From assembly GCA_030817875.1 (NCBI GenBank), contig JAUSZU010000001.1:2232001-2296000 (forward strand): a DNA stretch of 64,000 nt. Direction: 5' to 3'. Source of the DNA: Flavobacterium sp. W4I14 (GTDB lineage Bacteria > Bacteroidota > Bacteroidia > Sphingobacteriales > Sphingobacteriaceae). Below are positions 24,535 through 48,966 of the stretch, piece after piece; the first letter of the stretch is position 1, and the number at the start of each line of letters is the position of its first letter. The position numbers were made by a program, and so were the translations under genes. The notes below the pieces were generated by a model. It saw only the letters and a program-made list of their open reading frames with translations. It was not told the DNA's origin and did not search any database.

Positions 24535-25597
24535 TGCCTTCGGTATTTACTTCTTTCAGGTTAACGGGCTTGCCCCATTCACCAGCATCTGTTTTCAGGC
24601 AAACATAAATATCGGTACCGCCTAAGCCACCTGGCATATTTGAAGCGAAATAAAGGCTATTTCCATCGGCAGTAATAAAAGGATCGCCCACGGAGTAACC
24701 GTTTACATTATTATATGCAAATGAAACCGGTTCGCCCCAAACACCATTGGCATCTTTTGTACTGCTAAAAATTTCTACGTTAACGGTTGTTGGCTGTTTT
24801 TTTAAGCGTTCCAGTTCGTTAGTGATACGGGTTAGCGTAAAATACATGATTTTGCCATCGGCTGTAAAGCTTGCAGAACCTACATGATAGCTTGTACCTG
24901 CTTTTATGGGAAATAACTGAAGGCTATCGTTTGGCGATGGTTTAATATATAGTTTCAGGTATCCGTTACCGGTCCAGCCGTATATTTTTTTATCGGGTTC
25001 TTTTGCCCCATCAAATCTTAAAAAGGGCCTGCTTTCCTTAGTTTTTAATCCATTGTTTGATCTGTCGGAAGTAAATACAACTCCTCCCTGATAGTTAACG
25101 GCACCCCAATCGGACTGTTCGCTATTTAGCGTTTTTTGATTAATGAGTTCGATTTTCTTCGGATTTCTGATCCATTTCAAAGCCGAATCGCAAGAGGCAA
25201 GCCAAACAGCCTGCTGCTTTTCTGATACATTTTTCTTTTTACCAATGTAATTCAGGTACTGAACTTTTGCTTCGCTGTATTTCGAATTGCGCTGTAGAGC
25301 TTTGGCATAGCCCAACATATTCTCAGGGCTACTCCCTGGCATTTTAGCTGCAATAGCATACCAACTTTCGGCCTGTTTATAATTATAAACAAAGGTGTAA
25401 GCATTTGCTAAACGCGCTGCGGCGTGTAAAGTTTCTTTCTTTTTATAGGCTTGTTCGTATAAATCTATTGCCTTGATGTAATTGAACAATTCGTAAGCTT
25501 TATCGGCATCTTTTAATGCATACTGGGCACTTGCCGAAAAACTGAATATAAATAAACAATATGCAGAAAGGCAAGTGCCTATTAAAATTTTCTTCAT
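24476..25597 (-). CDS. Frameshifted OmpA-family protein, N-terminal part
   Basis: The front half of the broken OmpA-family gene. It has a signal peptide (residues 1-24, ending FSASA), TPR-like helices (about 30-135: AYELFNYIKAIDLYEQAYKK) and PD40-type propeller strands (GGVVFTSDRSNNGL, GNSLYFASNMPGGLGGTDIY). The frame ends in FYFFQRW and a stop, because the A6 run at 24489-24494 (plus strand) holds one base too many; with five it would read FYFSSDG and continue into the next frame. Either the gene is broken or the base is an error. The start is 44 bp after the PorP/SprF gene. Confidence 0.85.
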   Translation of the reverse strand: MKKILIGTCLSAYCLFIFSFSASAQYALKDADKAYELFNYIKAIDLYEQAYKKKETLHAAARLANAYTFVYNYKQAESWYAIAAKMPGSSPENMLGYAKALQRNSKYSEAKVQYLNYIGKKKNVSEKQQAVWLASCDSALKWIRNPKKIELINQKTLNSEQSDWGAVNYQGGVVFTSDRSNNGLKTKESRPFLRFDGAKEPDKKIYGWTGNGYLKLYIKPSPNDSLQLFPIKAGTSYHVGSASFTADGKIMYFTLTRITNELERLKKQPTTVNVEIFSSTKDANGVWGEPVSFAYNNVNGYSVGDPFITADGNSLYFASNMPGGLGGTDIYVCLKTDAGEWGKPVNLKEVNTEGNERSPVFDERNNFYFFQRW

Positions 25598-25641: not shown

Positions 25642-26616
25642 TTAAAATACCCTTGGGGTTGCCAATCTTAGGTTTTGTCTGATAAAGGAGTAAGCGATAG
25701 AAATTTCATGTGTACCACCGCTGTAGCCCTGTAATGGACCGATTGAGAAATCGTAACCATAGCCGATCCTGAGTTTTTCTGATGGAAAAATCTGTATCGC
25801 TGCTACCGCAGAGTTCCGAGGTGTAAGATCACGCTGCAAATAGCTTTTATCATACAGCTTCACACCTGTACGGTACGAACCGCCAACCCAGATAAAATCC
25901 CTGATCATCAAAAATGCATTCAAATCCAAACTCGTTGGACCTCCCCTGTCGTCCTTTAACAGGAAAGAAGGTTTAACCTGAAAATCTTCCGAAAGCGGAA
26001 ACAAGGCACCAGCGGTAAGGTAATAATGCGGTTTTGGCTGTGGGATAAAGGCATAACGGTCGATATTGATGTAAGTGGCAATCAGGTTATCGGCCGAGAA
26101 ACCTGCATAAAACTTATCGTTGGCAAAATAAACCCCTGCCCTTGCATCAGGCACAATGGTACTCTGCATACCAACTGGCTGGTTAGGCTCCGGGTTGTTC
26201 GGGTTTAGCAGCGAACCATCTATTCCCAACTGCACCATTCCAACGCCAAGGCCCAGCGCCAATCTCGAACTGCCATCATTATTCATCCTGATGCGGTAAG
26301 AATAGTTACCATAAATGCTCAGGTTGGTCTGTGCACCCAGTTTATCGCTCGCCACCTGAAGGGCCAAACCTACATTACCGCTGTTTGCAATGGCATCTAC
26401 CGCAAGCGACATGCTTCTTGGTGCCCCGGTTATGCCTGTCCACTGGCTCCGGTAAAAACTATGCACATTCAGCACTTCTTTATAACCGGCGTAAGCGGGA
26501 TTGATATAGATCCCATTGAACATGTACTGGCTATACTGGGCATCCTGTTGTGCAGATGCCTGTCGCGAAAGCAACAAAAACGAACCTGCTATTAACCATA
26601 TTAATTTCTTCATCAT
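25642..26616 (-). CDS. PorP/SprF-family type IX secretion membrane protein
   Basis: A 324-residue outer-membrane beta-barrel with a signal peptide (cleavage near LLSRQASA). It has the family start QDAQYSQYMFNGIYINPAYA and the QWTGITGAPRSMSLA motif, and it ends with an aromatic-poor barrel strand, ATPRVF. In Flavobacterium johnsoniae, SprF is needed to export the giant adhesin SprB, and genes of this family typically follow the genes of T9SS type B substrates. Here it lies 55 bp after the giant gene's stop, so the same pairing is very likely. A decayed second copy lies at 48589-48966. Confidence 0.92.
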   Translation of the reverse strand: MMKKLIWLIAGSFLLLSRQASAQQDAQYSQYMFNGIYINPAYAGYKEVLNVHSFYRSQWTGITGAPRSMSLAVDAIANSGNVGLALQVASDKLGAQTNLSIYGNYSYRIRMNNDGSSRLALGLGVGMVQLGIDGSLLNPNNPEPNQPVGMQSTIVPDARAGVYFANDKFYAGFSADNLIATYINIDRYAFIPQPKPHYYLTAGALFPLSEDFQVKPSFLLKDDRGGPTSLDLNAFLMIRDFIWVGGSYRTGVKLYDKSYLQRDLTPRNSAVAAIQIFPSEKLRIGYGYDFSIGPLQGYSGGTHEISIAYSFIRQNLRLATPRVF

Positions 26617-26671: not shown

Positions 26672-29600
26672 TTATTTTTTAAATGCTCTGATTAATGTAA
26701 TGTAACCTTTAAACACTTCGTACTGATCGCTTCCTGCCTTTTTAACACGCAGTAAATAGTAATAAGTGCCTTCATTCAAGCCCTCGCCTGTCCAGTTATT
26801 CTGGTAGCCTTTTGCTCGGAATACCTCATTACCCCAACGGTTAACAATCTGCAGTTCGTTAACCTGGTATTGGTTAATGCCCAAGATTTCGAAGGTGTCG
26901 TTTATACCATCACCGTTTGGCGTAAACAGGTTAGGTATGGTAAGGCCAGCGAAGTTAGCCGTTAAGGTTACCGCTGCCACATTGGTATAATAACCAAAGG
27001 CATCTTTCACCCTATAAATAAAGGCATCATCACCTGTATAACCCGGGTTAGGTGTATAAGTAATCGTACCATCAGGATTCACCGTTACTTTACCATGTTG
27101 AGGCTGACCTACAATTTCTACCGTTAATTTATCAAGGGTAGAATTTCCAGGATCATCATTTGCCAATACATTGATGGTAACCGGTTTATTTGCCACTGTA
27201 CCAGCCACATCATCAACCGCTTTTGGCGATTTAGGGAAGGTGATAACAGTTGCGGTATTGTTGTTTTCGGAAGTCCCTGAAACATCGCTTACATTAACAC
27301 CACCAAGTGTTTTGGCATTTACCGTAGCCGTATTGGTTGCTGTTCCCAGATCTTTATCGGCCTGTGTTAAGGTATATATTTCAACATCGGTTATGGCGGC
27401 TCCAGGGGCCAAACCACCAGGTACTGCAATTGCCTTATTGCTTAAGCCAAGTTTGGCATCAGTTAAGGTAACAGTATTTAAAGTGTTGGTTCCTGTGTTC
27501 TTGATTGTAAACGTATAGGTTACCTGGTTGCCACTAAACGCCGCTGTTTTAACCAAAGCTATAGCACCCATAATCGGAATCTGTGTTACGGTTGGCGTAT
27601 TATTATTTTCGGCTGTACCAGAGATATCGCTAACGGAAACATTTGCTGGTGTTTGACCTGTAATGGTTGCACTGTTGGTTACGCTTGCGGCATCTCTATC
27701 TGCTTGTGTTAACTGGTAAACATAGCTATCGGTTATGGTAGCACCCGGAGCAAGTGTACCAGGTATTACCCTGTTCAACCCAAGTTTGGCATCTACCAGC
27801 GTAATAATGTGCAGGGTTACATTTCCAGTGTTTTTAATACTAAAATTATAAGTGATACTATTTCCATCGGCACTTATCGTACCTGTTTTAACCAGGGCAA
27901 TGGTAGAAGCCGGAGCAATTAATGTTACTGTAGCATCATCAATAGCCGATGTACCCGGATCGTCAGACCGTGGCTTGGTCACCGTACCACCTCCTGGTGT
28001 TTGCGCGGTTGCAGAAGCCTGATTGCTAAACGAACCTGCATTCACCTCGGTTAAGGTAATGGTATGCCTTGCGGTTATCGTAACACTTACACCTGGTGCC
28101 AGACTTGCAATACTAACCGGAATGATTGATCCCGCATCGGCACCGGCATCTGTAACCGCCACATTTGTTAGGGTTACGTTGCCTGTATTGGTTACCACAA
28201 TGTTATAATTAATTACATCGCCAACCTTGCTCACCGTATTGGTAGCTACTTTGGTTAAACTCATCGCTGGTGCTGCCACCAAGGTTACCGTTACCGGAAC
28301 AGTTACGGTAGTGATACCTCCTTTGCCATCGCTTACGGTTATAGTGAAAGTATCATTACCTACATAGCCTGCAGTTGGTGTATAGGTGTATGTACCATCG
28401 GCGTTTACGACTACTGTACCATGTGCTGGCGGAGTGCTAACCGTAAAGTTAAGCGGATCGCCATCTATATCGCTTGCAGTTATTGTTCCGTTGGCTGCTG
28501 TATTTTGCGGCGTGGTAATGGCTGACGAAGTTGCTACTGGCGCATTGTTAACCGGACTTACGGTTATAGGAACAGCTACTGTAGTGGTACCACCTTTGCC
28601 ATCGCTAACAGTTACGGTGAAAGTATCAGTACCGTTATAGTTTGTTGCCGGAGTATAGGTATAAGTACCATCAGCATTTACTACCACTGTTCCATGTGCC
28701 GGAGGTGTGCTTACCGTGAAAGTAAGTGGATCACCATCGGCATCGGTCGCCGTAATTGTTCCGTTAATTGGAGTATCTTCAGGAGTAGTAATGGCAGGTG
28801 CACTTGCAACAGGTGCACGGTTATCTCTAATGTTAACAGTAGCAGGCATTGTGCTTGCCGTGATTAATGCATTGTTTGTTGTTGCATTCATCGTTAAGAT
28901 TACCGTTTCTGTCCCTTCAGCAATATTATCATCTAATACAGGCACATTTACCGTGGCGGTAGTTTGTCCTGCAGGTATGGTTACCGTTGTACCAATTGAA
29001 GTATAATCCAATCCGCTGGTAGCGGTTCCACCTACCGAATAGGTGATCTGCGTATCGGTTGCAGATACATTGCTCAAAGTAAAAGTGAACAAACCTGGCG
29101 TGGTTGGCTCTGCCCCATCGTTCGTTGCAGCCACTGTTACCGTGGCCGTTGTATTATCAAGAATGTTGATGCTTGCAGGTGTATTGCTTACACTTACCAA
29201 TGGATTACCAGAAGTAGTTAAAGTAGCAATAACGGTTTCAGTACCCTCAACCAGGTTATCGGTTGATACCGGAATGGTAATGGTTCCCGTGGTCTGGCCA
29301 GCAGGAATAGTAATGGTTTTGGTTACAATAGTGCTATAATCGTTGCCTTCGGTAGCTGTTCCTGTTAAGGTATAAGTTAAAGTTGTTGGCTGCGATGATG
29401 GATTGTTTAATGTTACCGTAAAAGTACCGTTTGCAGGTCCGTTTTCATTACCCGGTGTACCAGATGTTATGGTTGCTATCGAAGCATCGTTATCGTTAAT
29501 ATTAACGGTTGCCGGAGTGGTACCCGCGGTAATCGAAGAATTGCTTGTTGTCGCAATCATGGTTAAAATAACCGTTTCTGTCCCTTCAGCAATATTATCA

Positions 29601-32600
29601 TCTAATACAGGCACATTTACCGTGGCGGTAGTTTGTCCTGCAGGTATGGTTACCGTTGTACCTATTGAGGTATAATCTGTACCACTTGTTGCCGTACCCG
29701 TTACAGTATAAGTAATTTGGGTATCGGTTGTTGAGACATTACTTAAAGTAAAGGTAAACTGACCAGGTGTTGAAGGTTCTGCACCATCTGCTGTTGCAGC
29801 TACTGTTACCGTGGCCGTTGTATTATCAAGAATGTTGATGCTTGCAGGCGTATTGCTTACACTTACCAATGGATTACCAGAAGTAGTTAAAGTAGCAATA
29901 ACGGTTTCAGTACCCTCAACCAGGTTATCGGTTAATACCGGAATGGTAATGGTTCCCGTGGTCTGACCAGCAGGAATAGTAATGGTTTTGGTTACAATAG
30001 TGCTATAATCGTTGCCTTCGGTAGCTGTTCCTGTTAAGGTATAAGTTAAAGTTGTTGGCTGCGATGATGGATTGTTTAATGTTACCGTAAAAGTACCGTT
30101 TGCAGGTCCGTTTTCATTACCCGGTGTACCAGATGTTATGGTTGCTATCGAAGCATCGTTATCGTTAATATTAACGGTTGCCGGAGTGGTACCTGCGGTA
30201 ATCGAAGAATTGCTTGTTGTCGCAATCATGGTTAAAATAACCGTTTCTGTCCCTTCAGCAATATTATCATCTAATACAGGCACATTTACCGTGGCGGTAG
30301 TTTGTCCTGCAGGTATGGTTACCGTTGTACCAATTGAAGTATAATCCAATCCGCTGGTAGCGGTTCCACCTACCGAATAGGTGATCTGCGTATCGGTTGC
30401 AGATACATTGCTCAAAGTAAAAGTGAACAAACCTGGCGTGGTTGGCTCTGCCCCATCGTTCGTTGCAGCTACTGTTACCGTGGCCGTTGTATTATCAAGA
30501 ATGTTGATGCTTGCAGGCGTATTGCTTACACTTACCAATGGATTACCAGAAGTAGTTAAAGTAGCAATAACGGTTTCAGTACCCTCAACCAGGTTATCGG
30601 TTGATACCGGAATGGTAATGGTTCCCGTGGTCTGACCAGCAGGAATAGTAATGGTTTTGGTTACAATAGTGCTATAATCGTTGCCTTCGGTAGCTGTTCC
30701 TGTTAAGGTATAAGTTAAAGTTGTTGGCTGCGATGATGGATTGCTTAATGTTACCGTAAAAGTACCGTTTGCAGGTCCGTTTTCATTACCCGGTGTACCA
30801 GATGTTATGGTTGCTATCGAAGCATCGTTATCGCTAATATTAACGGTTGCCGGAGTGGTACCCGCGGTAATCGAAGAATTGCTTGTTGTCGCAATCATGG
30901 TTAAAATAACCGTTTCTGTCCCTTCAGCAATATTATCATCTAATACAGGCACATTTACCGTGGCGGTAGTTTGTCCTGCAGGTATGGTTACCGTTGTACC
31001 AATTGAAGTATAATCCAATCCGCTGGTAGCGGTTCCACCTACCGAATAGGTGATCTGCGTATCGGTTGCAGATACATTGCTCAAAGTAAAAGTGAACAAA
31101 CCTGGCGTGGTTGGCTCTGCCCCATCGTTCGTTGCAGCTACTGTTACCGTGGCCGTTGTATTATCAAGAACGTTGATGCTTGCAGGTGTATTGCTTACAC
31201 TTACCAATGGATTACCAGAAGTAGTTAAAGTAGCAATAACGGTTTCAGTACCCTCAACCAGGTTATCGGTTGATACCGGAATGGTAATGGTTCCCGTGGT
31301 CTGACCAGCAGGAATAGTAATGGTTTTGGTTACAATAGTGCTATAATCGTTGCCTTCGGTAGCTGTTCCTGTTAAGGTATAAGTTAAAGTTGTTGGCTGC
31401 GATGATGGATTGCTTAATGTTACCGTAAAAGTACCGTTTGCAGGTCCGTTTTCATTACCCGGTGTACCAGATGTTATGGTTGCTATCGAAGCATCGTTAT
31501 CGCTAATATTAACGGTTGCCGGAGTGGTACCCGCGGTAATTGAAGAATTGCTTGTTGTCGCAATCATGGTTAAAATAACCGTTTCTGTCCCTTCAGCAAT
31601 ATTATCATCTAATACAGGCACATTTACCGTGGCGGTAGTTTGTCCTGCAGGTATGGTTACCGTTGTACCAATTGAAGTATAATCCAATCCGCTGGTAGCG
31701 GTTCCACCTACCGAATAGGTGATCTGCGTATCGGTTGCAGATACATTGCTCAAAGTAAAAGTGAACAAACCTGGCGTGGTTGGCTCTGCCCCATCGTTCG
31801 TTGCAGCTACTGTTACCGTGGCCGTTGTATTATCAAGAACGTTGATGCTTGCAGGTGTATTGCTTACACTTACCAATGGATTACCAGAAGTAGTTAAAGT
31901 AGCAATAACGGTTTCAGTACCCTCAACCAGGTTATCGGTTGATACCGGAATGGTAATGGTTCCCGTGGTCTGGCCAGCAGGAATAGTAATGGTTTTGGTT
32001 ACAATGGTCGAGTAATCACTTCCTTCGGTAGCTGTTCCTGTTAAGGTATAACTTAAAGTTGTTGACTGCGATGATGGATTGCTTAGTGTTACCGTAAAAG
32101 TACCGTTTGCAGGTCCGTTTTCATTACCCGGTGTACCAGATGTTATGGTTGCTATCGAAGCATCGTTATCTATAATGGTTGCTGTAGCTGTTGCGTTGCT
32201 GATGATTACTACTCCACCGGTTAGGCCGCTCAATGTTGCAGTGAAAGTTTCAGATGGCTCTGCAATATTATCATCAATAATCGGAACAGTGAAAGTTATT
32301 GTAGATCCGGCTGCAGCATTTGCAGGGAAGTTTAACGTTCCGCTTGTTGTGGTATAATCTGATCCTGAAACTGCGGTTCCGCTTGCAGTTATATAATTAA
32401 CACTGAATGCATCCTGAACAGCATTATTCAAAGTTACTGTAAATGTAGCCGTTCCAGCACCTTCGTCAACCGTTGGTGTGGTAGAAATACTTACACTCGC
32501 TGTATTAGCATCAATAATGTTGATGCTTGAAGGTGTTGTGCTAATGGTAACAGATGGATTGCTTGAAGTACCCAATGTCGCAATAACGGCTTCTGTACTT

Positions 32601-35600
32601 TCGGCAATGGCATCAGTTAATACCGGAATGGTAATGGTTCCCGAGGTCTGACCAGCAGGAATAGTAATGGTTTTGGTTACAATAGTTGAGTAATCACTTC
32701 CTTCGGTAGCCGTTCCGCCTAAAGTATAGGTGATCTGTGTATCGGTGGCAGATGGATTACTTAAGGTTACAATAAATGTTCCATTCACCGGACCTGTTTC
32801 GTTTCCGTTTATTCCAGCTGTGATGGTTGCAACTGAAGTATCGTTATCAACAATTGATGTGTTCACACTTGCATTGCCTAAAGATGCCGGACCTGTAATC
32901 GACCCGATAGAAACCGCATAATCTTCGGTATTTTCAAGGATATTATCATCAACTATGGCAACAGGGAAAGTAATGGTACCACTTGCCGCCCCAACAACCG
33001 ATCCTGCCGGGAAAGTAATGGTCGAGCTGCTAAAGTTATAATCTGCAGCATTGGTGGTATTCGGCGTTATTCCGGTTACCACCGTTACTGGCGATGCCAA
33101 GGTAGTTCCGGCTGTTCCTGTAAGGGTAACCGTATAATTAACTACACCTGCATTTTCGTTAACTGATGATGGTCCTGATAATACTACGGTTGGATAAATG
33201 TTCACATTCACCGTAATCGGATCGCTCACTACCCCATCAGCTGTTGTTAAGGTATAGGTATAGCTATCCGTTCCGGTATAACCTGCATTTGGTGTATAAG
33301 TAACTTTTCCGGTTGCATCAACGCTTGTTGTCCCATGTGCACCATTCCCTGCTAATACAGTTGTATTGGTAGCTGTTACACCGTCATTGGCTTTAACATC
33401 GGTAGTAACCGGTGTGTTTATTAATGTATTTGCGTTATCGGTTACTCCTACAGGTTTAATTGAAATGATAAAAGTTTGTGTTGCACTATGGTCTACACCG
33501 CCATTCGCTGTGCCTCCGTTATCGTTTAATACCACAGTTACCGTAACCTTGCCTGCAAAGTTTCCTAAAGGCGTATAGGTTAGATTTCCGGAAGCATCTA
33601 TAGCAGGCTGTACCGTAAATGAGGTGCTGCTGTTGTTGCTTACCACAAAATTTACTGTTTGGGCTGCAACTTCATCAGCCGGACCAGCCACAATCGCTGT
33701 AGCCCAGTTGTTTACCGTTTGTGCACCAGCGTTTGCGTTCACTAGCTGATCTGCTCCTTTTATAAATGAAGGGGCGTCGTTTATTGGAGCTACCGTTAGG
33801 GTTAAAGTACTGCTTACTGCACCTCCGTTCCCGTCACTTACGGTATACATAATGGCTGGAACTGTACCATTATAATTGGCTGCAGGCACAAAAACATAAC
33901 TTCCATCTGCATTAAGCGTAATGGTACCAACACCCGTAATCAGGTTTGAAGATCCTGGAGTATAATCAACCCCTGAAATACTGTATTTAGTTATGGTTAA
34001 AGTATTATTATCGATATCGCTATCGTTGCTCAATACGCCATTTGCAGCTGTAACGGTTAATGTTACATCCTCGTTAGTTGTTTTAGTATCCGCAGCTAAA
34101 ACCGGATCGCTATTTACAGCAATTATTCCGGCTGATGCTTTATTGTTACTGGTAATAGGATCACTTTGTGCTCCAGAAATAGTGGCCGTTGTATTATAAT
34201 CAATTCCTAATTTTAGGGTTGCAGTAATGGTCAATACACTACTTGCGCCACTGTTTAAGTTACCAACCGTCCATGCACCTGTAGATTGATTATAGGTTCC
34301 TTGTGTTGCCGAAGCAGATACGAACTGATATCCAGCTGGTAATAAATCGGCAACGCTTACTCCTGTTGCATCACTTGGGCCATTGTTACCTGCCGTTATG
34401 GTAAATACCGCATTTTGACCAACTTTTAAGAAGGCATTAGCAACCGTGTTGGTTACATAGAGATCGGTACTGGTTTGGATTGTTGTTGTTACCGTTGCCG
34501 ATGTTGCAGCGCTGGTTCCTGCTTCAAGAGGTGTAGCTACAGCGGCATTGGCTAAACTTCCTGTTGCACCTGAAGGGATAATACCTTTTACAGAAATGCT
34601 TACGGCATTGGTTGATCCGGCAGGAATATTAGCCGTTAATGAAACCGAATTACCTGTTCCGGTACTTCCCGAAGTTACAGTTGCAGTTCCCGCAACACTT
34701 GTTGTCCAACTTACATTTTGGATTCCTGATGGTACAGCATCTGTTATCACCGATGCCAGGGCATCGCTTGTGCTGGTGTTTCGTACGGTAACAATATATT
34801 CTATCGCAGCACCTGCATTTGCAGTCGCAGGTCCGGTTTTAATAATTTCGAGCACTGGCAATCTGCTTACTACTGTATTTGCAATAGCAGATGACGCTAC
34901 TGCTCCAGCCTCTGAAGGTGTAGCTGTTGCTGTATTCGCCAATGTACCTGTATAATTTGCCGGAACTTTTCCACTCACCAAAATGGTAAAACCATTGCCA
35001 TTACCTGCATTAATATCGCCCGTTACCGAAACGGTATTTCCTGTAACGCTGCTATTAACGATAGTAGCATTCCCAGTAGTGCTTACGGTAATCGCAACGT
35101 TTGTAATCGCCGCAGGTACAACATCAGCTACACTTAAATTTACAGCATTACCCGTTCCTTCGTTGCTTACATTAATCAGGTAATTAATGTTATTGCCTGC
35201 CGTTAAAGTTGCGGGCCCCACTTTACTAATTTTTAATATTGGTTTTCTGCTTACTGTAGTTACCACTGCTGCAGAAGTAACTGGTGTGCTACCAGCTTCT
35301 GATGGAGTAATTGTAGCGGAGTTCGAAATGGTACCCGAGAATGAGCTGGCTATTATTCCTTTAATATTGATGATGATCACATCATTTGTACCTGCCGGGA
35401 TGTTGGCATTTATACTGATCGAATTGGTGCTTCCTGAATTTCCTGAGTTAATGATCGCATTACCTTGAGCCACAGCCGTCCACTGAACATTGGTTAAGTT
35501 GTTCGAAAGCGCATCTGTAATTACGGCATTCAATGCTGTACTTGGACCATTATTGCGAACTCGGATCTGATAGTTGATTTCCTCACCAGCCAAAGCAGTT

Positions 35601-38600
35601 GTTGGACCGCTTTTCGTGATAACCGGACTAACCATCGCCGAAATAATAGTTGTAGCACTGGCCGTTTTAGCCGCAACACCAGGTTCTGATGGAGTTGCAG
35701 AAGCGTTATTTACAATGGTGCCAACATAAGTTGGATTAATGGTTCCGGTTATAACAACGTTGATTACGCCATTTACAGGAACATTTACTGATGCAGATAC
35801 ATTGTTTGTTGCGCCTGAAGCCGTTCCGTTAACTATAGCGCCATTGCTTGCTGTTGCTGTCCATTGTACGTTGCTGATATCAGCTGGAACCACATCAGCA
35901 ATAGTGGTATTTACGGCATCAGATGGCCCGGTATTGGTTAATTTTAAAGTGTAAGTAATCTGCTGCCCACTTGATGCTGTACCAGGTGCCGATTTAGAAA
36001 GGGCTAAACCTGGCGTTTTCTGCAGCACCGTAGTTACCGGCGTAGAAACTACAGGTGGGTTGCCTGGTTCTGCAGGAGTAGCTGTAGCACTATTTACAAT
36101 ATTCGCAGTTGCATTAGAGGCAACGAAACCATTTATTGTAATTAATATTTTTGAGTTTCCGCCTGCTAAAATATTTCCGGTTACAGATAGTGCATTTCCG
36201 GTTCCGGTTGCTCCTGCACTTACAGTTGCACCATTGGTAACTGTTGTACTCCAGATTACATTTTGTATTGCCACAGGAACTGCATCGGTAATTATTGTAC
36301 CTGTTGCGTTACTTGGGCCTGCATTGCTTACTTCAATGGTGTAACTTATCGGTAAACCAGCACTTAAAGTTGCAGGCCCCGATTTAATTACGCTCAAGTT
36401 CGTCTGTTTAGCCACTACGGTAGTCACCGTTGGCGAATTTACCGGAGTTCCGGCCGCACCGATTTTGGCCGATGCTGTATTCAATATGTTTCCAGCAAAA
36501 GCAGGATTTATGGTTCCAACAACATTGATGGTAATGGAATTGCCCGAAGCAAAAGGAATATTTCCAACTACTGCTACGGTATTTCCGCTTCCGGTTGCAC
36601 CTGAGCTAATAGAAGTTGTACCATTTGCTACCGCTGACCAGCTTACATTGGTAATATCTGCAGGTATTGCATCGGCAATATTTACTGCTGTTGCATCACT
36701 AGGGCCATTATTACTAACCGTAAGGGTATAATTAATCTGTGTTCCAGAAGCTGCAGTGCTTGGTCCACTTTTCTGTACCACTAAACCAGCTGAATTGATT
36801 ACAGTTGTATTTACTGTTGCTGAATTGTTTGTGGTATTAAAATCTGTTATTCCAGCCTGTAAAGTTACTGTCGCAGTGTTAGTCAGGGTTGATGCAGCAG
36901 TGTTCGATGGCACTTTTCCGCTCACCAAAATGGTAATGAAATTTGTACTTCCAGCATTTATGTCCCCACCTACAGAAATGTTATTTCCGTTGCCTGTTGT
37001 GGGTCCGGTTATGATAGCAGTTCCGTTGGCAGATGCCGACCAGCTTACATTTGTAATGCCTGCTGGCACCACATCTGCTATAGTTAATCCGCTAACATCA
37101 ACAGGGCCATTATTAACAACTTTAATAGCATAGCTGATATTTTCTCCTGCAGATATGGTTTGAGGACCAGTTTTGCTGATTGCAATATCTGTTGATTTAT
37201 TGATGCTTGTGGTAACAGAACTTTGTTTAATATCACTGGCGGTTACTTCAACCGTATTGGTAAACACCGCCCTTGCGGTTTGTTTAATAATACCATTCAC
37301 AGTAACAGTAATCGTTCCTGTACCTGAATTAATATTTCCTTTTGTTGATATTGAGTTTGATGACCCTGAAGCTGTACCTGTAACTGTAGCACCTACGGTA
37401 GCTACTGCAGTCCAGCTGTTTACCTGTACATCTACCGGTACGTTATCGGTTATAAAGGCATCGGTAATGTTTCCTGCTCCTGTGTTATTAATCACAATAG
37501 TGTAGGTTATCGGATCGCCAATATTCGCATTTGCCGGACCAGATTTTGAAACCCTGAATACTGGATCGTTATCTACAGTTGTTACTTTTGTTGAAGTATT
37601 ATCAGATAGATCGGGATCGGTAATACCAGCACTTACGGTAGCTGTTGCCGTATTTAAAATCGTTTCCCCCTGAGTTAATGCCGGAGATACCGTTCCGGTG
37701 ATGTTAACCAGAACAAGCCCTGTTGTTGGTATGGTTGCGTTGAAACTAATACTGTTTGTTGTTCCACTCGCCAAAGTTGAGGTTGCTCCCCCAGAATTAA
37801 GCACACTCCAGTTCACCCCCGTTATGGTACTTGGTATATTATCAAGTATTGCGGTTGTTGTAGCTGTACTCGGTCCGTCGTTTACAATACGTAAGGTATA
37901 AGAAATTACTTCTCCTGCCCCAACATTTGCCGGACCAGATTTTGTAATGCGCACATTTGCTTTTCTTGTAGTTGTGGTGGTAACGGTACTGCTTGCCGGT
38001 GTTAAATCGGTTACACCTGCAGGAGGAGTTGCCGTTGCGGTATTAGAAATACTAGTGGTTAGCGTTGGCGAAATCCTGCCCGTAACCGTAATGATAATTT
38101 TATCGGCTGCGTTTGCCGTAAGGTTACCTGTAATATCAATATTTCCTGAACCATTACCTACACTAGCCGTTGCTGCGCCTTGTGTAGCCACTGTCCAGGT
38201 TGGTGTTAAAAGGTTTGTATCAAAGGTATCCTGAATTCTAGCTGCTGTAACATCACCTGGCCCGGCATTGGTTACGGTGATAGTATAACTTACCTGCTCT
38301 CCTGCAACTGCTGCAGTAGGTCCGGTTTTTTCTATTCTTATATCAGCCTGTTTTGTTACTGCTGAGGTAACCGTATTCGAGGTCACTATCGCATTACCTG
38401 CCTCTGATGGTGTTACAGTAGCCGAGTTTGATAAAGAGCTACCTGCAAATGCAGCATTTACCTTACCGGTAATGGTTACATTAATTGCATTCGCAGCCCC
38501 AGCCGGTATATTACCAGTAATGCTTAGATTGTTTCCTTTTCCAGATGCGCCTAAAATAATATTTGCAGTACCTGTAACAGCCGCTGACCAGCTCACATTG

Positions 38601-41600
38601 GTAATTCCACTTGGAATATTATCAGCAATTACTGCAGCTACTGCATTACTAGGGCCTGCATTTTTAATGCTTAATGTATAGGTTATATTTTCGCCAGCAT
38701 TAACTGATGATGGTCCTGCTTTAACGATAGTAATTGCACTTTTATTAGAAATAGTAGTACTTACAGCATTTGAATTAACTGGTACCACACCCGCCTCTGT
38801 TGGTGTTGCCACCGCCTGGTTCGTAATGGTTACATTACTTTGGCCAGCAGCAATTGTTCCCGTGGCAGTTATGGTAACTTTATTTGCAGTGCCTACCTTT
38901 AAGTTGCTGGTCAAACTTACATTTCCGGCACCTGAAGCTACACTTACAGTAGATGTTCCCGAAGCCACCGAAGTCCAGGTTACACCTGTTAATTGTGTTG
39001 GAATAGCATCTGTAATACTTAAATTGCTGGCATTAGAAGGTCCGTTATTAACGGCTTCAATAATATAAGTAACGGTTTCACCCGATTTAGCCGTTGCTGG
39101 TCCGGTTTTAGTTAAGCTTATTGAGGGTAATTTACCTACCGAGGTGGTTACGGTATTAGATGTTTTAGCTGTTGCCCCACTCTCTGCCGGTGTAACGGTA
39201 GCATTATTTGCAATACTTGTTGCAGCAGTACCCGCATCAACAGTTCCTGTTACAGTAATTACAATTTTATTTGCTGCTCCTGCCGGAATATTACCAGTTA
39301 TACTTACTGCATTTGTACTTCCTGTAGCACCTGCTGTAACTACTGCTGCTCCTGAAACCGAGGTAGTCCACGATGGGTTTAAAATACTTGCCGGAATGGC
39401 ATCGGTAATTACCGATGCATTTGCATTGGCCGTGCCTTGGTTGGTTATGGTAATGGTATAACTGATCTGTTCGCCAGCATTAATAGATGCTGGCCCACTT
39501 TTTTGTATAGCTAAAACCGGAATTTTGCTTACAGTTGTATTAATGGTCGATGTTGCTGGTGTTGTTCCGCTTTCTGATGGCGTAGCGGCTGCAGTATTAG
39601 CTAAATTACCGTTTAATGCAGCACTTACTTTACCTGTAATGGTTACGGTGATGTGGTTTACACTTCCTGCAGGTATATTACCCGTAATTGTAACGGTATT
39701 TCCAGTACCTGTTGCACCCGTTAATACCTGCGCAGCACCTGTGGTAGTAGCGGTCCAGGTTACATTGCTAATCTGATTGGAAACCGCATCAGCTATGCTT
39801 AAATTTTGAGCATCAGCGGTGCTGGTATTAAATACATCCAATGTATAAGTGATGTTCTCACCTGCTACTAATGCTGTAGGGCCATTTTTAGTAATGGCTA
39901 CAGTTGGTGTTCTATTAACTGTTGTATTGGTTGTTGATGATGGAGAAGGACTTCCGCTTTCAGTTGCCGTAACTGTTGCAGTATTGCTTAACGCACCGTT
40001 AAATGCAGGGTTTACTTTTCCGCTAACGGTTACAATTACTTTATTTGCTGCTCCTGCCGGAATCGTTACTCCTGTTTGCAGGCTATTGCCGCTGCCCGTT
40101 GCGCCAGCGTTAATTACTGCGGTTCCTTGAACGGTTGATGTCCAGATAGGATTTAAAACCTGTGCTGAAATCGCATCATTCAAAGTTGCATTGATGGCAT
40201 CGCTTGGCCCGTCATTTCCTATTTCTATGGTATAACTAATGTTAGCACCAGAAGTGATAGTTGAAGGAGCACTCTTTAATACCGTTAAACCAGACCTGGT
40301 AGTTAACGAAGTGTTAACCGGGTTTGAACTGATTGGAGATACACCACTTTCCACTGGTGTAACGGTAGCTGTATTGGTAATATTGCCCGATGCATTGCTT
40401 GCTATTTTTCCAGATATAGTAATCTGAACTGTACTGTTGGCCTGGAAACTCCCGGTTAAACTTAGGTTATTACCTGTACCTGTTGCTCCAGCAGATATCG
40501 CCGCTGTTCCTCCCGTTACAGCGCTTGTCCAACTTGCATTGGTTATCGATGCTGGTATGGCATCTGTAATTATTGTATTTAAACTATTCGATGGCCCTGT
40601 ATTTTTTATGGTTATCGAATAAACAATGTTGTTACCTGCAATGGCGGTACTTGGCCCACTCTTTGTAATGGTAAATACTGGTTTTCTACTTACTGAAGTT
40701 ACGGCCTGTGCACTTACAGGAGCACTTCCACTTTCCTGTGGCGTTGCAGTAGCGCTATTGGTAATGCTGCCTTCAAAATCTGTTTTAATGGTACCGGTAA
40801 CATTGATGATAATTTTATTAGCTGCCCCTGCCGGAATATTACCAGTAAGGTTAATATTATTTCCAGTACCAGTTGCACCTGTAGTAACAGTGGCTGTACC
40901 CAATACCTGACTCGTATAGGTAACATTCGTTAAAGAAGCCGGCACAACATCAGCCAATTGTACACCTGTTGCATTACTTGGCCCATTGTTGGCAACTTGA
41001 ATCTGGTAGCTAAGCGCATTTCCGGCAGTTTCTGATGATACTGCAGTTTTGGAAATTGTAACACCAGATGTACTGGTAATGTTCGAATTTACACTTGAAG
41101 TACTTCCCGTTCCCTGTGGTTCTGCCGGAGTTACCGTTGCAATATTAGTAATGCTACCTGCGGCACCTGGATTTACCGTACCCTGGATGGTTACATTTAT
41201 GGCATTTGCACTTCCTGCCGGGATATTAACTTTTAAATTAACGGCATTTCCACTACCCGATGCTCCAGTGGTAACAGCAGCAGTACCTTCAGTGGTGCTG
41301 GTCCAGGTTACACCTTGTATGCTAGTAGGTACGGCATCGGTAATATCGGCATTTATGGCATTACTGCTTCCGTTATTTACAATCCTTAAAGTATAAGTTA
41401 CTGCAGAACCAGCTGTTAAACCAGAAGATCCTGTTTTGGTAATGGCAAGTACAGGTTTGGCATTTACAGTGGTATTGTTGGTAGCTGTATTATTTGTAGT
41501 ATTCGGATCGGTTATACCCGCTGGAGGGGTTAAAGTTACCGTATTACTTAAACTTCCTGTTGCAGCAGCAGCTACTGTTCCGGCTATAGTTAAGGTTGCC

Positions 41601-44600
41601 GATTGTCCATTACTTAAAGTTAAGCCCGTCCAGTTTCCATTCGTGCTGGTATAGGTTCCTGATGAAGTGTTATAACTCGTTGCAGTAAAACCAGCAGGCA
41701 AAGCATCTATAACTTTAACTATATCTGTGTTTAATAACTGGCTGGTTCCATTATTGGTAAGTGTAATGGTGTAAGTTAGCGCTTCGCCTGCAATTACCGG
41801 ATTTGGCGTTGAGGTTTTTGCAATGGCAAAATCTATTGAACGATTTATGGTTGTTGCATCTGTTGCGGTATTATTACCGACATTAGTATCGGTTGTTCCT
41901 GTTGGTGCGTTAACTGTTGCCGAGTTGTTTAAAGTTCCGCTAGCATTCGCAGCCACAGTTCCAGCGATAGTTAATGTAGTAGATTGACCATTGCTTAAAG
42001 TCAAACCAGTCCAATTTCCGTTAGTTTGATTATAAGTTCCTGCAGCAGCGGTAAAAGTTGTTGCGGTAAATCCTACCGGAAGATTGTCCACTACATTTAC
42101 AATATCAGTTGAAAGTAACGCACTGCTTCCGTTATTGGTTAAGGTAATGGTATAGGTTAATGTTCCACCTGCTACAACTGGTTTTGGTGATGCTGTTTTT
42201 GCAAGCACTAAATCAACCTGTCTGTTTATGGTCGTATTATCTGTTTGGCTATTGTTGGTCAGATTCGGATCAACTGTGCCGGTTGGTGCAGTTACACTTG
42301 CGCTGTTACTAATGCTACCAGTTGCTGTTGCAGCTAATGTACCCACAATAGTTAAGGTTGCATTTTGTCCGGTTGCTAAAGTTAATCCCGTCCAGTCGCC
42401 GCTTGCACTTGTAAAAGTACCCGTTGAAGCAGTAAAGGTATTTGCAGTAAATCCGGCAGGAAGATTATCAGTAATCTTCACTATATCTGTAGATCTTAAA
42501 GTGCTTGGACCGTTATTGGTTAAAGTGATGGTATAGGTTAAAGCATTACCTGCAATAGCTGGTTTTGGTGACGCTGTTTTAGTTAAGGATAAATCGATTG
42601 AAGGAACCGGAACTATATTGGTTATAGAAGTCGAATTATTTGCAGGTGTTGGGTCTGTTTCTGTACCTGTAATATTCGCATCGTTACCATAGTTGACCAC
42701 GGTTGCATTGGCATTAACCGTAGCAACAATGCTTAATGTTTGTGATGATACACTATTTAAAGCACCAATGGTCCAAATACCTGTGGTGGCATTATAGGTT
42801 CCAATTCCTGGTGTTGCACTTACAAAAGTATAGCCTGATTTTAATAGGTCATTTACTTGTACACCCGTTGCATTACTTGGTCCGTTATTGGTTGCAGTAA
42901 TGGTAAAGGTTACATTTTCGCCAATTGTAGGGTTTGTTTTATTTACTGCTTTAACAATTTGTAAATCTGTACTTTCAGTATAAGTAATTACTACATCGTC
43001 GGAAGAAGCTGCACAAGGTGAGCTTGTGATCGTCCAACGTAAAGTAGCAGATGTATTTTTTGCAATAGTTACGGTAGTGTTGCGGTTTGTAGGGGTAGCA
43101 ATGTTAGCCGATCCGGTAACAAGTGTCCAAACACCAGTGCCCGAAGTTGGCGCATTTCCCTGTAAAGTAAATGTTCCGGAATTGTATTGTGTCTGATCGG
43201 CACCTGCATTAGCTGCTGTAGGCAATGCACTTACACCTATTGTTACCGGAGATGATGGTACCGACGAACATGCTGTTGTAGCAGTAGAAACAGTTGTTCT
43301 TCGATATAAAGTAGTGGTAATTAAAACAGGAGGCTGAAAAGTTGGTGCATTTGCACCGGCAATAGCCGCCCATGTTGTTCCATTGGTTGAGTTTTCCCAA
43401 ACATAACTAATGGTACCCGAGCCTGTTCCATTAGTTACAGAAGTTAAAGGAGCTGGTTGAGTATTGGTGCAAATCGTTTGATTACTACCAATAGATCCCG
43501 CAGTTACAATTCCTTGAACGGTTACTGTAAAGGTAAATGTATTGCCCGAACATCCATTGGCAATTGGTGTTACTGTAAAGGTAACCACTTGTGCTGTACC
43601 AGTTGTATTGGTTAAAGTTCCGGTAACGCTTGCGCCTGAACCGCTACTTACAATTCCTGTTACATTAGTATTATTATCCCTTACCCACGTATAACTTGTT
43701 GCCCCGCTAAAATTAACGGTAGCTATAGCTGCACCGCTACAAATATTCTGACTGGTCGGTGTTGCCGATCCAGCTGGCAATGCATTTACTGTAACCGTAA
43801 CAGCAGATGTTATGGCTTCGGCACAGGCACCACTTTTAACCCTAACCCTGTAATAAGTGGTTGCAGTTAAAATACCAGGTGTTATCGAAGTTAAATTTTC
43901 CGTTCCGGCAATATCCGTCCAAGTACTGTTATTTGGAGAGGATTGCCAAAAAACAACATTACCTGTTTGCCCACTTATAGACAATGCGGTAGGTGCAGTA
44001 TTAAAACAAATGCTTTGCGCCCCGCTTACTGTACCTGCAACTGTTGTTGGACTCTGGCTAAGCACGACTGTTCCGGAAGCAGTTCCAGAACAAGTTGCAT
44101 TTCTAACAGAAACTAAAGAGTAGGTACCTGCCTCAGATGGTGTAATGGTAACACTGGCTGTTGCACTACTCTGCTCTGTAGAAACCAAACCAGAAGGATC
44201 TCTATAAGTGTAAAACCATGGACCAGTTCCCGTAAACGCAATATTCAGCGTTGGCAAAGCTGTCCCGTTACAAACTGTTGCCGAACTCCCAACAGTACCA
44301 TTAATACTTAAAGTACCCGTTGGTAATACACTGTTATTTGTTAATACCAAATCTGAAGTACTGGTACAAGTACCATTGGTAATCGTCCAACGGGCAGTTA
44401 CAGGTGAGCCATTTCTTACGCCCACAACAGTTGCATTTGACTGGTTCGGATTATTAAGCGTAGCAAAGCCACCTGTATTTACAATAAGGCTCCATTGTCC
44501 GGTACCCACTGTTGGGGTATTACCAGTAATAAAAAACGTACCATCGTTACAGGCCGTACCACCAGAAGTAATTGATGAACTGGCTGTAGTGGGATTGGCA

Positions 44601-47101
44601 TAAAGCAAAACAGTCGAATTACTTCCTCCACTTACCGATGCCGTATTAGACCAGTTGCCAGAAGGCTGTACCGTTGTTGCGGTTGCTGTTATGGTAAAAG
44701 AGGCAGTTTGTCCGGTGGTAAGGCCAGTACCCGAGTTATAAGCAAAGGTATAAGTTGTACCTACATTCGAACGTGTCCATGGAGCAGCTGTTCCGGTTGA
44801 ACTTACAAAAGTCATTCCCGTAGGAATTACATCTATTACCGAAAATGTATTTAAGGTTGTAGTACCTTCATTTTTAACCGTAATGGTATAAGTAGCATTA
44901 GCACCAGTAGTTATACACGTTGGACTAACTGTTTTTAAGATTGATATATTAGGTTTGGTTAACAGTAAATCTTCATCTGTTAATGCAGGATTGTAATTGC
45001 TTCCACCAACTGTTCCACCAGTTTCGTAAGTAGTATTGGTACCTGCTATTGCAAAGGATGCAGGAGAAATTAACCGCTCAGGATTAGCGGCAGTACGTGT
45101 TGGATCTAAATAAGTTACCTGGGCCGGATTACTGTAAGTACCTGCGGCTGTTGCAGCCGGAATGGTAACCGTTAGTTGAATTGTTGCCGACGTTCCAGCT
45201 GGAATATTAAAATTCCCCAATATCGGGGCAGTAGCTGTTCCACTATTTGTTACCGTAACAACGGTTGATGGACTAGTAGAATAAACGATTGTAGCTGATA
45301 AAAATGTTAAACCTGCAGGTAGTTGATCATTTACCCGAACACCTTCTGCACCGCCACCTGTATTGTTAATATTAATGGTATAAACCGTGGTAGAACCAGC
45401 GGGTACCGAAACTGTTGGGTTGGTTCGAGACTTAGTAATAACCAGATTTGGTAAACAGGTTGAACTTACGCCTTGCAACTCAGGAGGTAAATCATTAAAA
45501 GTGAACTGATTCACCACGCCTGGAGTCGAACCATCTGTTGCACCATAAGGGACATTGGAATTTGCATTTCCGGCCTGTGTAACGCCATTATTTGTTCTTC
45601 CGCTTAAGCCTGCAGCACTAGTTGCCGTTATTGTAGCATTTGGAATTTTATAGTGAATTACACCACCACCGCCACCGCCACCAGGACCATGTGCGGTTGT
45701 GGTAAAAGAATTTCCTCCATTACCACCTTTTGCCTGGATGGTTAAGTTGGCTGTTGGGCTTGGGTTAGCCGCACTAATAAATATTGTACCTCCGGCACCA
45801 CCCCCACCTGCGCCATCTGCAGCATTACCCAAACCACCTGCTTCACCTCTTCCTCCATTGGCCAGAATAGTTCCTGTTCCTTCAATTTTATTAGCTGTAA
45901 TGAGGATAATACCTCCACCAACACCACCTCTTACGCCATTAGTTGCATTATTGGCATCTCCGGCACCACCTCCACCACCAAGAAATAATCTGTTCAATGC
46001 ATAAGGAACTGTAGAACCTTGCCGGCCACCCGTAAGTGTATTGTCTCCAGTTGCACCAACCCAAGCCCATCCACCTAACCCACCAGCAGAGCCGTTACCA
46101 CCACCGCCTCCGCCTGCATTGTGCACGTTACCCCCACCACCGGCATTACCCGGTGCGCCACGACCATAATCTCCACTTGGATATCCCTGAACACCATTGT
46201 CTACCTGATTATAACCATCCCACATAAAACGGGGCGTACCCACAATACCCTCCCCCTTAGTACTTGCCAAGGCCGAATTAGTGGTAACGTATAAACTTTC
46301 CTGGGCACTTGCAATGGTCCGGGGCAATAAATAACCACCACGAAATCCAGTTGCACTTGCATCAATTACACGACCGTTCATGGTTAACGTCCCAGCAACA
46401 TCAATCGCAATTAAACCGCCGGCCTTACCATTCCAGGGAATAGTTTTAATATCAGTAGTCATGGTTAAATTCGAATATTGCATTAAACGTACAATCTGGA
46501 AACGTCTTTGTCCCTTTGTAGCGGTTGCATCCGAATTCACATAACTATTTACCAATCCTCCACCAGTACCAGCACCTTTAAATTGTAATGTTCCACCAGC
46601 TGTAGTGATGTCATTAAGCGCTACCACATATTCGTAACGGCCAGCAGTAACTGTTCCGGTATAACCAGAGCCATTATTGGCAGCCACTCCCGATCCATAT
46701 GATGAAGTATTAGTTGTATTGGCATCCGCGCCCTGCATCTGTATAATCAACAACAAATTGCCTTTGGTTATTTGTGTATTACCGAATGAAAACACGGTAC
46801 TTCCTACCGTGAATGAACCAGGTACAGGATCCAATTCTAAGGAGGTACTGCCAGAATTCAAGGTTATACTTCCTGACTTAGATGGATAAAACGTATTTGC
46901 TGCAGTACTTAAATTTCCAGCTCCGTCTGCACCGGGAGTAGCACATACCGGTGTTTGTGCATTGGAAACAGCGGTACAAAAAAGCAAAGCTGTAACAACA
47001 AACAATGCGCAGCTAATGCAATTAAATTGTGTTGTTAAATTAATTTTTTTACCAAAAAAAATACGCAGATAGCGGGATAGAGAGTGTAAATTTTTATTCA
47101 T
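26672..47101 (-). CDS. Giant T9SS type B surface protein with DUF11 and Calx-beta repeats
   Basis: A 6,809-residue secreted protein, counted from ATG at 47101 (MNKNLHSL); an in-frame ATG at 47128 would add 9 residues without helping the signal peptide, which ends at TAVSNAQ. Order of parts: an N-terminal domain with [11 protein letters not shown]; a Gly-rich stretch (about 305-490); two DUF11-like repeats (from about 553); Ig/PKD-like repeats; a block of 23 DUF11-like repeats (about 1370-4330), each beginning like TKSGPATxxAGxxxxYT; a cadherin-like unit; Calx-beta repeats (about 4640-6090) including five near-identical 223-residue units; two VCBS/cadherin-like units; three more DUF11 repeats; and a C-terminal T9SS type B domain ([15 protein letters not shown], then NRWGNEVF). 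It is probably a surface adhesin exported with the adjacent PorP/SprF protein. Confidence 0.93.
28819..32163 (-). repeat. Five tandem 669-bp repeats inside the giant gene
   Basis: Plus-strand landmarks such as GCTATCGAAGCATCGTTATC recur at about 29474, 30143, 30812, 31481 and 32150, exactly 669 bp apart. Each unit encodes 223 residues, a pair of Calx-beta domains beginning [19 protein letters not shown]. The copies are nearly identical at the DNA level; the most divergent are the two outer copies and the fourth unit in protein order. Confidence 0.92.
34110..42990 (-). repeat. Block of 23 diverged DUF11-like protein repeats
   Basis: Twenty-three units of about 115-135 residues can be counted by their start motif (K-x-GP/T-x-x-AG-x-x-I-x-YT) followed by N-x-GPS(N/D)A, a VP-x-x-I-x-NV-x-W strand and an ITN-x-ATVTP ending. 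Unlike the 669-bp units they are diverged at the DNA level. Confidence 0.85.
45640..46190 (-). other. Gly-rich segment of the giant protein
   Basis: Codons here give runs of Gly such as [19 protein letters not shown] and [18 protein letters not shown], unlike the Thr/Ser-rich remainder of the protein. It follows the N-terminal domain and may be a flexible or adhesive linker. Confidence 0.7.
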
Positions 47102-47259
47102 AAGAGGGATGACATGTAATCGTATCACTAGGGGGAATGATACTGGTCTAAAGCTTTTTATTCAAGAAGTATTTACGTAATCTTAGAACCTATGGTTTTA
47201 AGCACTGAAGTTCTGTGAGCAATTAATTCTTATTCGTTCATTCTATTCATTTTTCTGCA

Positions 47260-47617: not shown

Positions 47618-47803
47618 ATGAAAACTAAAGACAATAAAGACGCAGTGGAAAAAGAGCGTAAAAATAAAGGAAGCTCAAAGGGAAAGGCCTCCTTCGATCA
47701 AAACGGAAAGGGTTCTTCAGATAAATTTGGTCAGGCTGGTTCTACACCTAACGAATCAGGAGAGAGTGGGCTTGGTACTGTAGATAAAAACAAAAAGACT
47801 TAG
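47618..47803 (+). CDS. Small hydrophilic protein of unknown function
   Basis: A 61-residue protein rich in Lys, Gly, Ser, Asp and Asn, without hydrophobic segments (KERKNKGSSKGKASFDQNGK, ESGLGTVDKNKKT). It is probably disordered. The composition is like that of small stress-type proteins in Bacteroidota, but I recognise no family. Support comes from a clean ATG, an AT-rich upstream region, and a terminator hairpin right after the stop. It is convergent with the LuxR-type regulator gene. Confidence 0.6.
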   Translation: MKTKDNKDAVEKERKNKGSSKGKASFDQNGKGSSDKFGQAGSTPNESGESGLGTVDKNKKT

Positions 47804-47805
47804 AA

Positions 47806-47834
47806 GATAAAAAGAGTAAAATACTCTTTTTATC
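47806..47834. terminator. Bidirectional terminator
   Basis: GATAAAAAGAGTA, AAA, TACTCTTTTTATC: a 13-bp perfect stem with T-rich arms on both strands, between two convergent genes. It overlaps the stop codon of the LuxR-type regulator (47830-47832). Confidence 0.7.
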
Positions 47835-48477
47835 TTTCATAGATACTCATCTTTTCAGCAAGTTCTATAATGCTTTTTATTTTCAGCTTTTGAAAAAGTC
47901 TCAACTTATAAGTACTTACTGTACCCATCTGAAGATTTAGCTGATTAGAAATTTCTAATACCCCAATTCCCTTTGTTAGTAATTCTGCTACTTCTAATTC
48001 TCTACCCGAAAGTTTGGTAAAAGGATTATCAGCATCATTGCCTAATATACTGTTGAACATGTTTTCCTTAACATTTCTGCTCGAATAGCGACTGCCTGCT
48101 AAAATCGTAGTAATAGCGGTTACAATTTCTGATTCTTCTGCATTTTTGGTTAAGTACCCCGATGCACCCGATTTTAAATACGGAACAGCATAAATATTCT
48201 CATTCAAAGATGAAAATACTAAGATTTTTGCGTTTGGCTGAACTAGTTTAATCTGATCGATTACCTTAAGGTTGTTACCCCCTGGCAAGTTTACATCAAT
48301 GATGATTAAACTCGGCGATTTTTCTGTTTCGACGAGCGCCTGCTCCAGTGTAGATGCATGAATGATTTCAACCCCAGGCCAAAAGTCTGATATTAAACCT
48401 TTTAATCCACGGCGGATGATCTCATGATCATCAGCGATGAGCACAGTAAAAGTACTTACGGCATTTTTTGTTTTCAT
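47830..48477 (-). CDS. LuxR/NarL-family response regulator
   Basis: A two-component response regulator, 215 aa from ATG at 48477 (MKTKNAVSTF); an ATG 21 bp upstream is also in frame. The receiver domain has the acidic pair in VLIADDHE, the phosphoacceptor Asp61 in IIIDVNLPGG, and the conserved Lys in YLTKNAEE. The C-terminal GerE-type HTH follows (LSGRELEVAELLTKGIGVLE, then MGTVSTYKLRLFQKL). No kinase is adjacent, so it is an orphan here. Its position next to the giant gene makes it a candidate regulator of the surface cassette, by location only. Confidence 0.9.
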   Translation of the reverse strand: MKTKNAVSTFTVLIADDHEIIRRGLKGLISDFWPGVEIIHASTLEQALVETEKSPSLIIIDVNLPGGNNLKVIDQIKLVQPNAKILVFSSLNENIYAVPYLKSGASGYLTKNAEESEIVTAITTILAGSRYSSRNVKENMFNSILGNDADNPFTKLSGRELEVAELLTKGIGVLEISNQLNLQMGTVSTYKLRLFQKLKIKSIIELAEKMSIYER

Positions 48478-48588
48478 TATTTTAAGAATATTGTGCAAGT
48501 TAATAAAAAGTTATTTTTTTGTACGCAATTGTAGTTAATTTTTCGCTTAAATGTGTAAATATTATAATACACAAGTTTACAGTTTTGC

Positions 48589-48966
48589 TTAAAACACCCT
48601 TAGGGTTGCCAATCTTACATTTTGCTTAATGAAGGAATATGATAAGGAAATCCATATATACCGTTGCTGTAGCCCTGTAGCGGACCAATTGAAAAATTGT
48701 AACCATAGCGGAAAAATCTGTATCGCCGCTACGGCCGGGTTCTTAGGTGCAAGATCACGCTATAAATAGTTTTTATCATACAGCTTTATTCCTGTACAGT
48801 ACGAACGGCCTACCCAGATAAAATCTTTGATCGTCAAAAATGCACTCAGATCCAAACTCGCCGGGCCTCCGCGGTCATCTTTTAACAGGAACGAAGCTTT
48901 AACCTGACAATCTTCCAAAAGAAAAAAAAAGTCGTGGTAAAGTAATAATGCGATTTTGACTGTATA
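48589..48966 (-). pseudogene. Decayed C-terminal copy of the PorP/SprF gene
   Basis: Reads as a diverged copy of 25642-26030 on the same strand, starting at the same stop codon context (CCCTTAGGGTTGCCAATCTT here, CCCTTGGGGTTGCCAATCTT there) and continuing through CGCTGTAGCCCTGTA and GATCACGCT. It has deletions, in-frame stops and no 5' half, so it cannot make a barrel. With the intact copy at 25642 it brackets the giant gene in direct orientation. Confidence 0.85.

Follow-up and report, generated by a model that had tools for sequence, protein, structure and literature searches.

A giant type B gene of Pedobacter probably encodes a static surface adhesin with a fixed DUF11 rod and a variable Calx-beta array

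Introduction

SprB of Flavobacterium johnsoniae, a repetitive 669 kDa substrate of the type IX secretion system (T9SS) with a type B C-terminal domain (CTD) (PMC9143113), glides and reaches about 200 nm (PMC12635249). Its carrier SprF, encoded just downstream, is bonded to GldK via a Cys-X-Cys tail (PMC12635249), and the pair is not followed by a PorE-like gene (PMC12618676). In published models based on gene order, type B proteins without PorE, such as SprB, ride the gliding track, whereas those with PorE are fixed to the peptidoglycan (PMC9143113, PMC12618676). The second arrangement, a type B substrate followed by PorP and a PorE-like protein, is found in Fjoh_3952-3951-3950 of F. johnsoniae and in PG1035-PorP-PorE of Porphyromonas gingivalis, for which static cell-wall models have been drawn (PMC12618676, PMC9143113). 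Here we describe a gene for a giant type B protein in the genome deposited as Flavobacterium sp. W4I14 (GCA_030817875.1). It occupies positions 26672-47101 on the minus strand of the window, the whole 64,000-nucleotide stretch that was analysed (contig JAUSZU010000001.1, 2,232,001 to 2,296,000). The protein is probably a static T9SS fibrillar adhesin, held by its carrier, anchored via PorE and built from a fixed rod, with predicted isopeptide bonds, and a Calx-beta array of variable length.

Two further groups of surface rods are relevant. In fibrillar adhesins with DUF11 domains, named CLIPPER in one survey, the structure of a DUF11 domain (PDB 9IFR) contains an intramolecular isopeptide bond formed by Lys715, Asp748 and Asn806 (PMC12617251). 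The survey used AlphaFold DB structures of at most 1,280 residues (PMC12617251), and giant proteins therefore lie outside it. Periscope Proteins are single-chain surface rods in which near-identical tandem repeats vary in number and the tip stands at the far end; the reviewed Gram-negative examples are inverse autotransporters (PMC8201768, PMC9704523). Comparable lengths are known from the Mobiluncus mulieris adhesin, a chain of 7,651 residues with intramolecular cross-links (PMC10619420), and from Giant1-5 of Apilactobacillus (PMC12863079), which likewise display thousands of Ig-like or repeat residues on the surface; unlike the Pedobacter giant, these proteins are Gram-positive and are not T9SS substrates.

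An intact gene under purifying selection

The genome is a single contig of 6.45 Mb. The closest relatives of the PorP gene next to the giant gene are all in Pedobacter, with those in Chitinophaga more distant, and the host is a Pedobacter soil bacterium. The sequence-only reading of the window, made by a model before this analysis, described one open 20.4-kb frame of about 6,809 residues with a signal peptide at one end and a type B sorting domain at the other, and all three elements are recovered. The frame runs from an ATG through 6,809 codons without a stop; an alternative GTG start at 47128 would add nine residues. The computed mass is 677 kDa and the isoelectric point 4.3. A stretch resembling a signal peptide, judged by eye, covers residues 1-48 (46958-47101), with predicted cleavage after CTAVSNA and before QT. 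The CTD (26687-26941) matches CHU_C (E 1.9e-25, 89.2 bits, cut-off 27) and TIGR04131 (E 3.4e-14, 52.7 bits, cut-off 35). Homology thus supports well the assignment to T9SS type B fibrillar adhesins, a known kind of protein, with a mass near that of SprB.

Two other species have intact orthologs in independent assemblies. The P. psychrodurus protein is 10,060 residues long; that of P. soli, with 6,949 residues, shares the N-terminal tip (87% identity) and has 30 Calx-beta units, and it is without the 23-unit DUF11 rod described below. A third ortholog, of about 8,200 residues, lies in the single-contig genome G009 and is cut up by frame breaks, which are likely sequencing indels in a long-read assembly; a long Calx-beta array can be followed there despite the frame changes (loci L101/L102, G009:C1:1629000-1660000). 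Between the present gene and that of P. psychrodurus, synonymous divergence (dS) is 0.34-0.41 and the ratio of nonsynonymous to synonymous divergence (dN/dS) is 0.08-0.10 across tip, DUF11 rod and C-terminus. The gene is under purifying selection.

The carrier and the putative anchor

The giant gene is followed by its cognate PorP/SprF carrier gene (25642-26616, minus strand, as are all features below unless noted), which encodes 324 residues without a cysteine and matches PF11751 (3e-70) and, above its cut-off, TIGR03519. All nine PorP/SprF genes of this genome lie directly behind a type B gene, as do 62 of the 66 in nine Pedobacter genomes. Because the pairing is genome-wide, the single PorP neighbour is ordinary. 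The sequence-only reading had taken this neighbour, together with the size of the protein, as a sign of a dedicated adhesin or contact system; this part of it falls, as lengths of 4,500-10,600 residues are common in Pedobacter too, while its assignment of the protein to T9SS type B surface adhesins stands.

That reading overlooked a PorE-like gene of the TPR/PD40/OmpA type directly behind PorP. Its 5' frame (24476-25597) encodes a PD40 propeller, and this N-terminal half aligns with intact PorE-like proteins; its 3' frame (23635-24534), out of frame with the 5' part, encodes a carboxypeptidase-regulatory-like domain and an OmpA peptidoglycan-binding domain. Pedobacter and Chitinophaga both keep the order type B-PorP-PorE, with a PorE-like frame of about 660 residues that is intact in most relatives. 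The break falls at a short T run (24480-24560), where the aligned relatives have a gap and a single frame. The trio resembles the Fjoh_3952-3951-3950 and PG1035-PorP-PorE systems; the PG1035 complex has been demonstrated biochemically, whereas the Pedobacter trio is known from gene order and homology, with a broken PorE-like frame.

A static, peptidoglycan-anchored adhesin is predicted because of the PorE-like gene and the cysteine-free carrier. Whereas SprF ends in the Cys-X-Cys tail that bonds to GldK and has no PorE-like gene after it, the carrier described here has no cysteine at all, and PD40 and OmpA frames follow it (PMC12635249, PMC12618676). No PorP protein of this genome carries two cysteines within the final 30 residues. 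SprA, the translocon component of the T9SS, is present in the genome (2,002 bits); the GldJ homologue scores 319.6 bits, below the curated cut-off of 458.2.

In this genome a PorE-like gene stands at only three PorP loci, those of its three largest type B proteins; the two besides the giant are frames of about 4,500 residues. In the nine genomes, type B proteins have a median length of 4,491 residues where PorE is present (n = 15) and 1,582 residues where PorP stands alone (n = 48; Mann-Whitney P = 1.3e-6, a value that overstates the case, as many of the points are orthologs that represent, by eye, about five PorE operon families). One of these families is small, with a type B protein of 403 residues.

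A fixed rod beneath the probable tip

From the N- to the C-terminus, the signal peptide is followed by a Gly-rich domain of 450 residues, two DUF11 units, an Ig/PKD stretch, 23 further DUF11 units, cadherin-like/Big_9 units, 13 Calx-beta units, two Big_9 units, three DUF7507 units, a Big_9-like unit and the type B CTD. Domain searches recover the Ig, cadherin-like and Calx-beta units seen in the sequence-only reading, and its count of 28 DUF11-like repeats is exact (25 DUF11 and three DUF7507). The two-part stalk that these units form had escaped it.

DUF11 units 1-2 (residues 553-850, 44552-45445) are separated by the Ig-like/PKD_5/Ig_7 stretch (residues ~855-1375, 42977-44539) from the tandem array of 23 (residues 1380-4343, 34073-42964). 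The three DUF7507 (CLIPPER_2) units lie close to the CTD (27230-28264). Mutual identity among the 28 units is about 25-50%; their five most conserved columns include Lys (27/28), Asp (28/28) and Asn (27/28), and 27 units contain the complete triad, including 22 of the tandem 23 and all three DUF7507 units. The spacing matches that in PDB 9IFR (e.g., 1889, 1922 and 1986). Triads are kept in 26 of 27 units in G009 and in 25 of 27 in P. psychrodurus, by a cruder mapping that scores the present protein 25 of 27. The outer DUF11 rod is thus predicted to be covalently locked by Lys-Asn isopeptide bonds. With its DUF11 and DUF7507 stalk, Lys-Asp-Asn triad and CHU_C sorting domain the giant resembles the surveyed CLIPPER adhesins (PMC12617251), from which it differs in having 27 triads in one chain.

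The same 25 DUF11 units stand in the same order in this genome, G009 and P. psychrodurus. Each shares 88-97% identity with its positional counterpart in P. psychrodurus and at most 65% with other units of the same protein: the rod is fixed, and orthology follows position along it. Searches of PDB sequences with the tip, a Calx pair and DUF11 gave no match except a weak DUF11 profile match to the fimbrial subunit 3qdh (E 0.0056).

The Gly-rich tip (residues 52-498, 45608-46948) resembles NF047640 (gliding_AgmC_N; E 4.7e-39) with 134.5 bits against a curated cut-off of 275; its relatives in the class also score below it. Of 149 genomes sampled from the class, 77 contain similar domains, for the most part in proteins of normal length. 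An AgmC gliding role, suggested by the family name, was considered and rejected, given a score at half the cut-off and a domain found in every second genome sampled. Among the papers listed by a literature search for AgmC, none bore the name.

A variable array, probably next to the cell

The cadherin-like/Big_9 units (33182-34072) lead from the DUF11 array to the 13 Calx-beta units (28814-33181), the cell-proximal variable stalk, which two Big_9/cadherin-like units (28265-28813) join to the DUF7507 units. The array contains five near-identical Calx-beta pairs of 669 nt (223 residues; 28811-32155). These pairs are 89-99% identical within the genome, 79-81% identical to those of G009 and 74-77% identical to those of P. 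psychrodurus, and the array is in concerted evolution by recombination. Its size differs between the species: 13 units here, 24 in G009 and 40 in P. psychrodurus. AlphaFold modelling of two Calx-beta pairs gave a predicted local distance difference test score (pLDDT) of 45.5, and the model was not used.

With its C-terminus predicted to be retained at the outer membrane, the protein would have the variable array nearest the cell and the fixed rod and the tip farther out. The repeats themselves are of the Periscope Protein type: in tandem, longer than 50 residues and highly identical at the DNA level. Periscope proteins are defined by repeat numbers that vary among strains of one species; as the variation seen here is between species, the giant is grouped with the T9SS type B fibrillar adhesins. 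It differs from the reviewed Gram-negative examples in T9SS/PorP anchoring and in its second, fixed rod (PMC8201768, PMC9704523). We tentatively propose, as one joint claim whose chance of being right we put somewhat below even, that it is a periscope protein of Pedobacter exported by the T9SS, its distal rod constant and locked by isopeptide bonds and its Calx-beta array growing and shrinking by recombination, and that type B fibres of great length rely on PorE for anchoring, PorE marking the load-bearing adhesins.

A model of the fibre and its alternatives

The giant protein would be taken to the periplasm by Sec, after which its type B CTD would pass through SprA to the PorP/SprF carrier, the product of the next gene downstream. 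The carrier would then hold the C-terminus at the outer membrane, and the PorE-like protein would link the carrier to peptidoglycan, giving a fibre that withstands pulling and stays in place instead of gliding. The far tip, likely the binding end, would be the Gly-rich domain at the N-terminus. It would sit on a rod made up of 25 DUF11/CLIPPER domains, and for almost all of them an intramolecular isopeptide bond between Lys and Asn is predicted. On the cell side of this rod, the number of Calx-beta units would shift by recombination between the near-identical 669-bp pairs and would set the distance from tip to cell, as in a periscope. By analogy with SprB, the reach may be similar, about 200 nm; if a Calx unit spans about 4 nm, the 27 extra units of P. 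psychrodurus would lengthen the fibre by about 110 nm.

Several observations weigh against parts of this model. In the present assembly the reading frame of the PorE-like gene is interrupted, so that anchoring may be impaired unless the break is a sequencing error. SprB is equally large without PorE, and size alone thus needs no PorE; the orthologs in the length comparison are dependent points. No ligand-binding fold was identified in the tip (AlphaFold with three sequences, pLDDT 33; no relative in PDB), and the Calx repeat number is seen to vary between species, not strains.

A collapsed or chimeric repeat gene, the danger that the sequence-only reading itself had pointed to, is the least credible alternative and can be set aside as most improbable. 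Repeats are hard to assemble, the G009 copy has frame breaks, and of 39 PorP loci with 85% identity or more to the one here, 19 have a contig end no more than 10 kb away on the side of the adhesin, against six on the opposite side; the present genome is, however, a single contig whose Calx units diverge at 1-11% of positions, and a chimera is rejected because intact orthologs exist in two other species, with dN/dS near 0.1. An SprB-like adhesin that glides, carried on the GldJ/K/N track by PorP/SprF, would account for the CTD type and the matching mass (669 and 677 kDa), and the genome has SprA and a GldJ homologue. The latter is the one below its cut-off, the carrier lacks the tail that bonds to GldK (PMC12635249), and mobile SprB-like substrates have no PorE-like gene in the operon (PMC12618676, PMC9143113). 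The gliding role, left as an option in the sequence-only reading, is therefore rejected on carrier cysteines and PorE and is very unlikely. Somewhat less remote, though still unlikely, is a decaying locus, in which PorE is broken, the upstream adhesin has been deleted, and the giant is secreted and poorly anchored or no longer useful here. The PorE-like break and the remnant of a second PorP gene upstream of the regulator (see below) fit such decay; the giant gene, by contrast, keeps its frame open along all 20.4 kb and is under purifying selection, and a break in a short T run is possibly a sequencing error.

The remaining alternative concerns the array: unit number may drift neutrally via recombination, without functional effect, and the array would then be no length regulator. 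Concerted evolution with copy-number change is the default outcome of unequal recombination, and the comparison is between species only. Despite large differences in copy number the units keep their frame and fold, and all four orthologs have at least 13 units, observations that count against neutral drift but are compatible with it. Neutral drift is a substantial if doubtful alternative.

The upstream region

A LuxR-type response regulator gene (47830-48498) lies directly upstream of the giant gene and may control the adhesin. A frame of similar size stands between tandem giants at several other Pedobacter loci, its identity as the regulator having been checked in P. psychrodurus and G009. 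Between regulator and giant gene, a Lys/Gly/Ser-rich frame of 61 residues lies on the plus strand (47618-47803), with a similar frame at the same place in G009.

Beyond the regulator is the remnant of a second PorP/SprF gene (~48592-48930), also missed in the sequence-only reading. It comprises the C-terminal 120 residues, interrupted by stops and frame changes, and is 67% identical to the PorP that precedes the same regulator in P. psychrodurus; G009 has a similar remnant. In P. psychrodurus and others, a second giant adhesin and its PorP occupy this place, and both seem to have been lost in this lineage. Tandem arrangements of two or three type B giants, each with its own PorP, occur in P. 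psychrodurus (L022/L082) and P. soli (L036/L039/L048).

Giant adhesins in Pedobacter

Giant size is typical of the genus. A survey of 40 genomes found other Pedobacter type B frames of 10,597, 8,027, 6,305, 5,778 and 5,184 residues. The longest (G008:C1:858698-890469) has 35 Calx-beta units and is followed by PorP and PorE; no DUF11 unit was found in it with the profile built in this analysis. The number and size of giant type B genes are probably under-recorded, as short-read contigs often stop inside them.

If the prediction holds, the present gene adds a giant from Pedobacter to those T9SS adhesins that are static and anchored via PorE. The greater length of type B proteins in operons with PorE offers a checkable link between anchoring and length, of which we found no statement in the cited literature. 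The natural series of 13, 24 and 40 Calx-beta units, combined with a fixed rod of predicted isopeptide-bonded domains, would allow a test of whether bacteria tune the reach of their adhesins.

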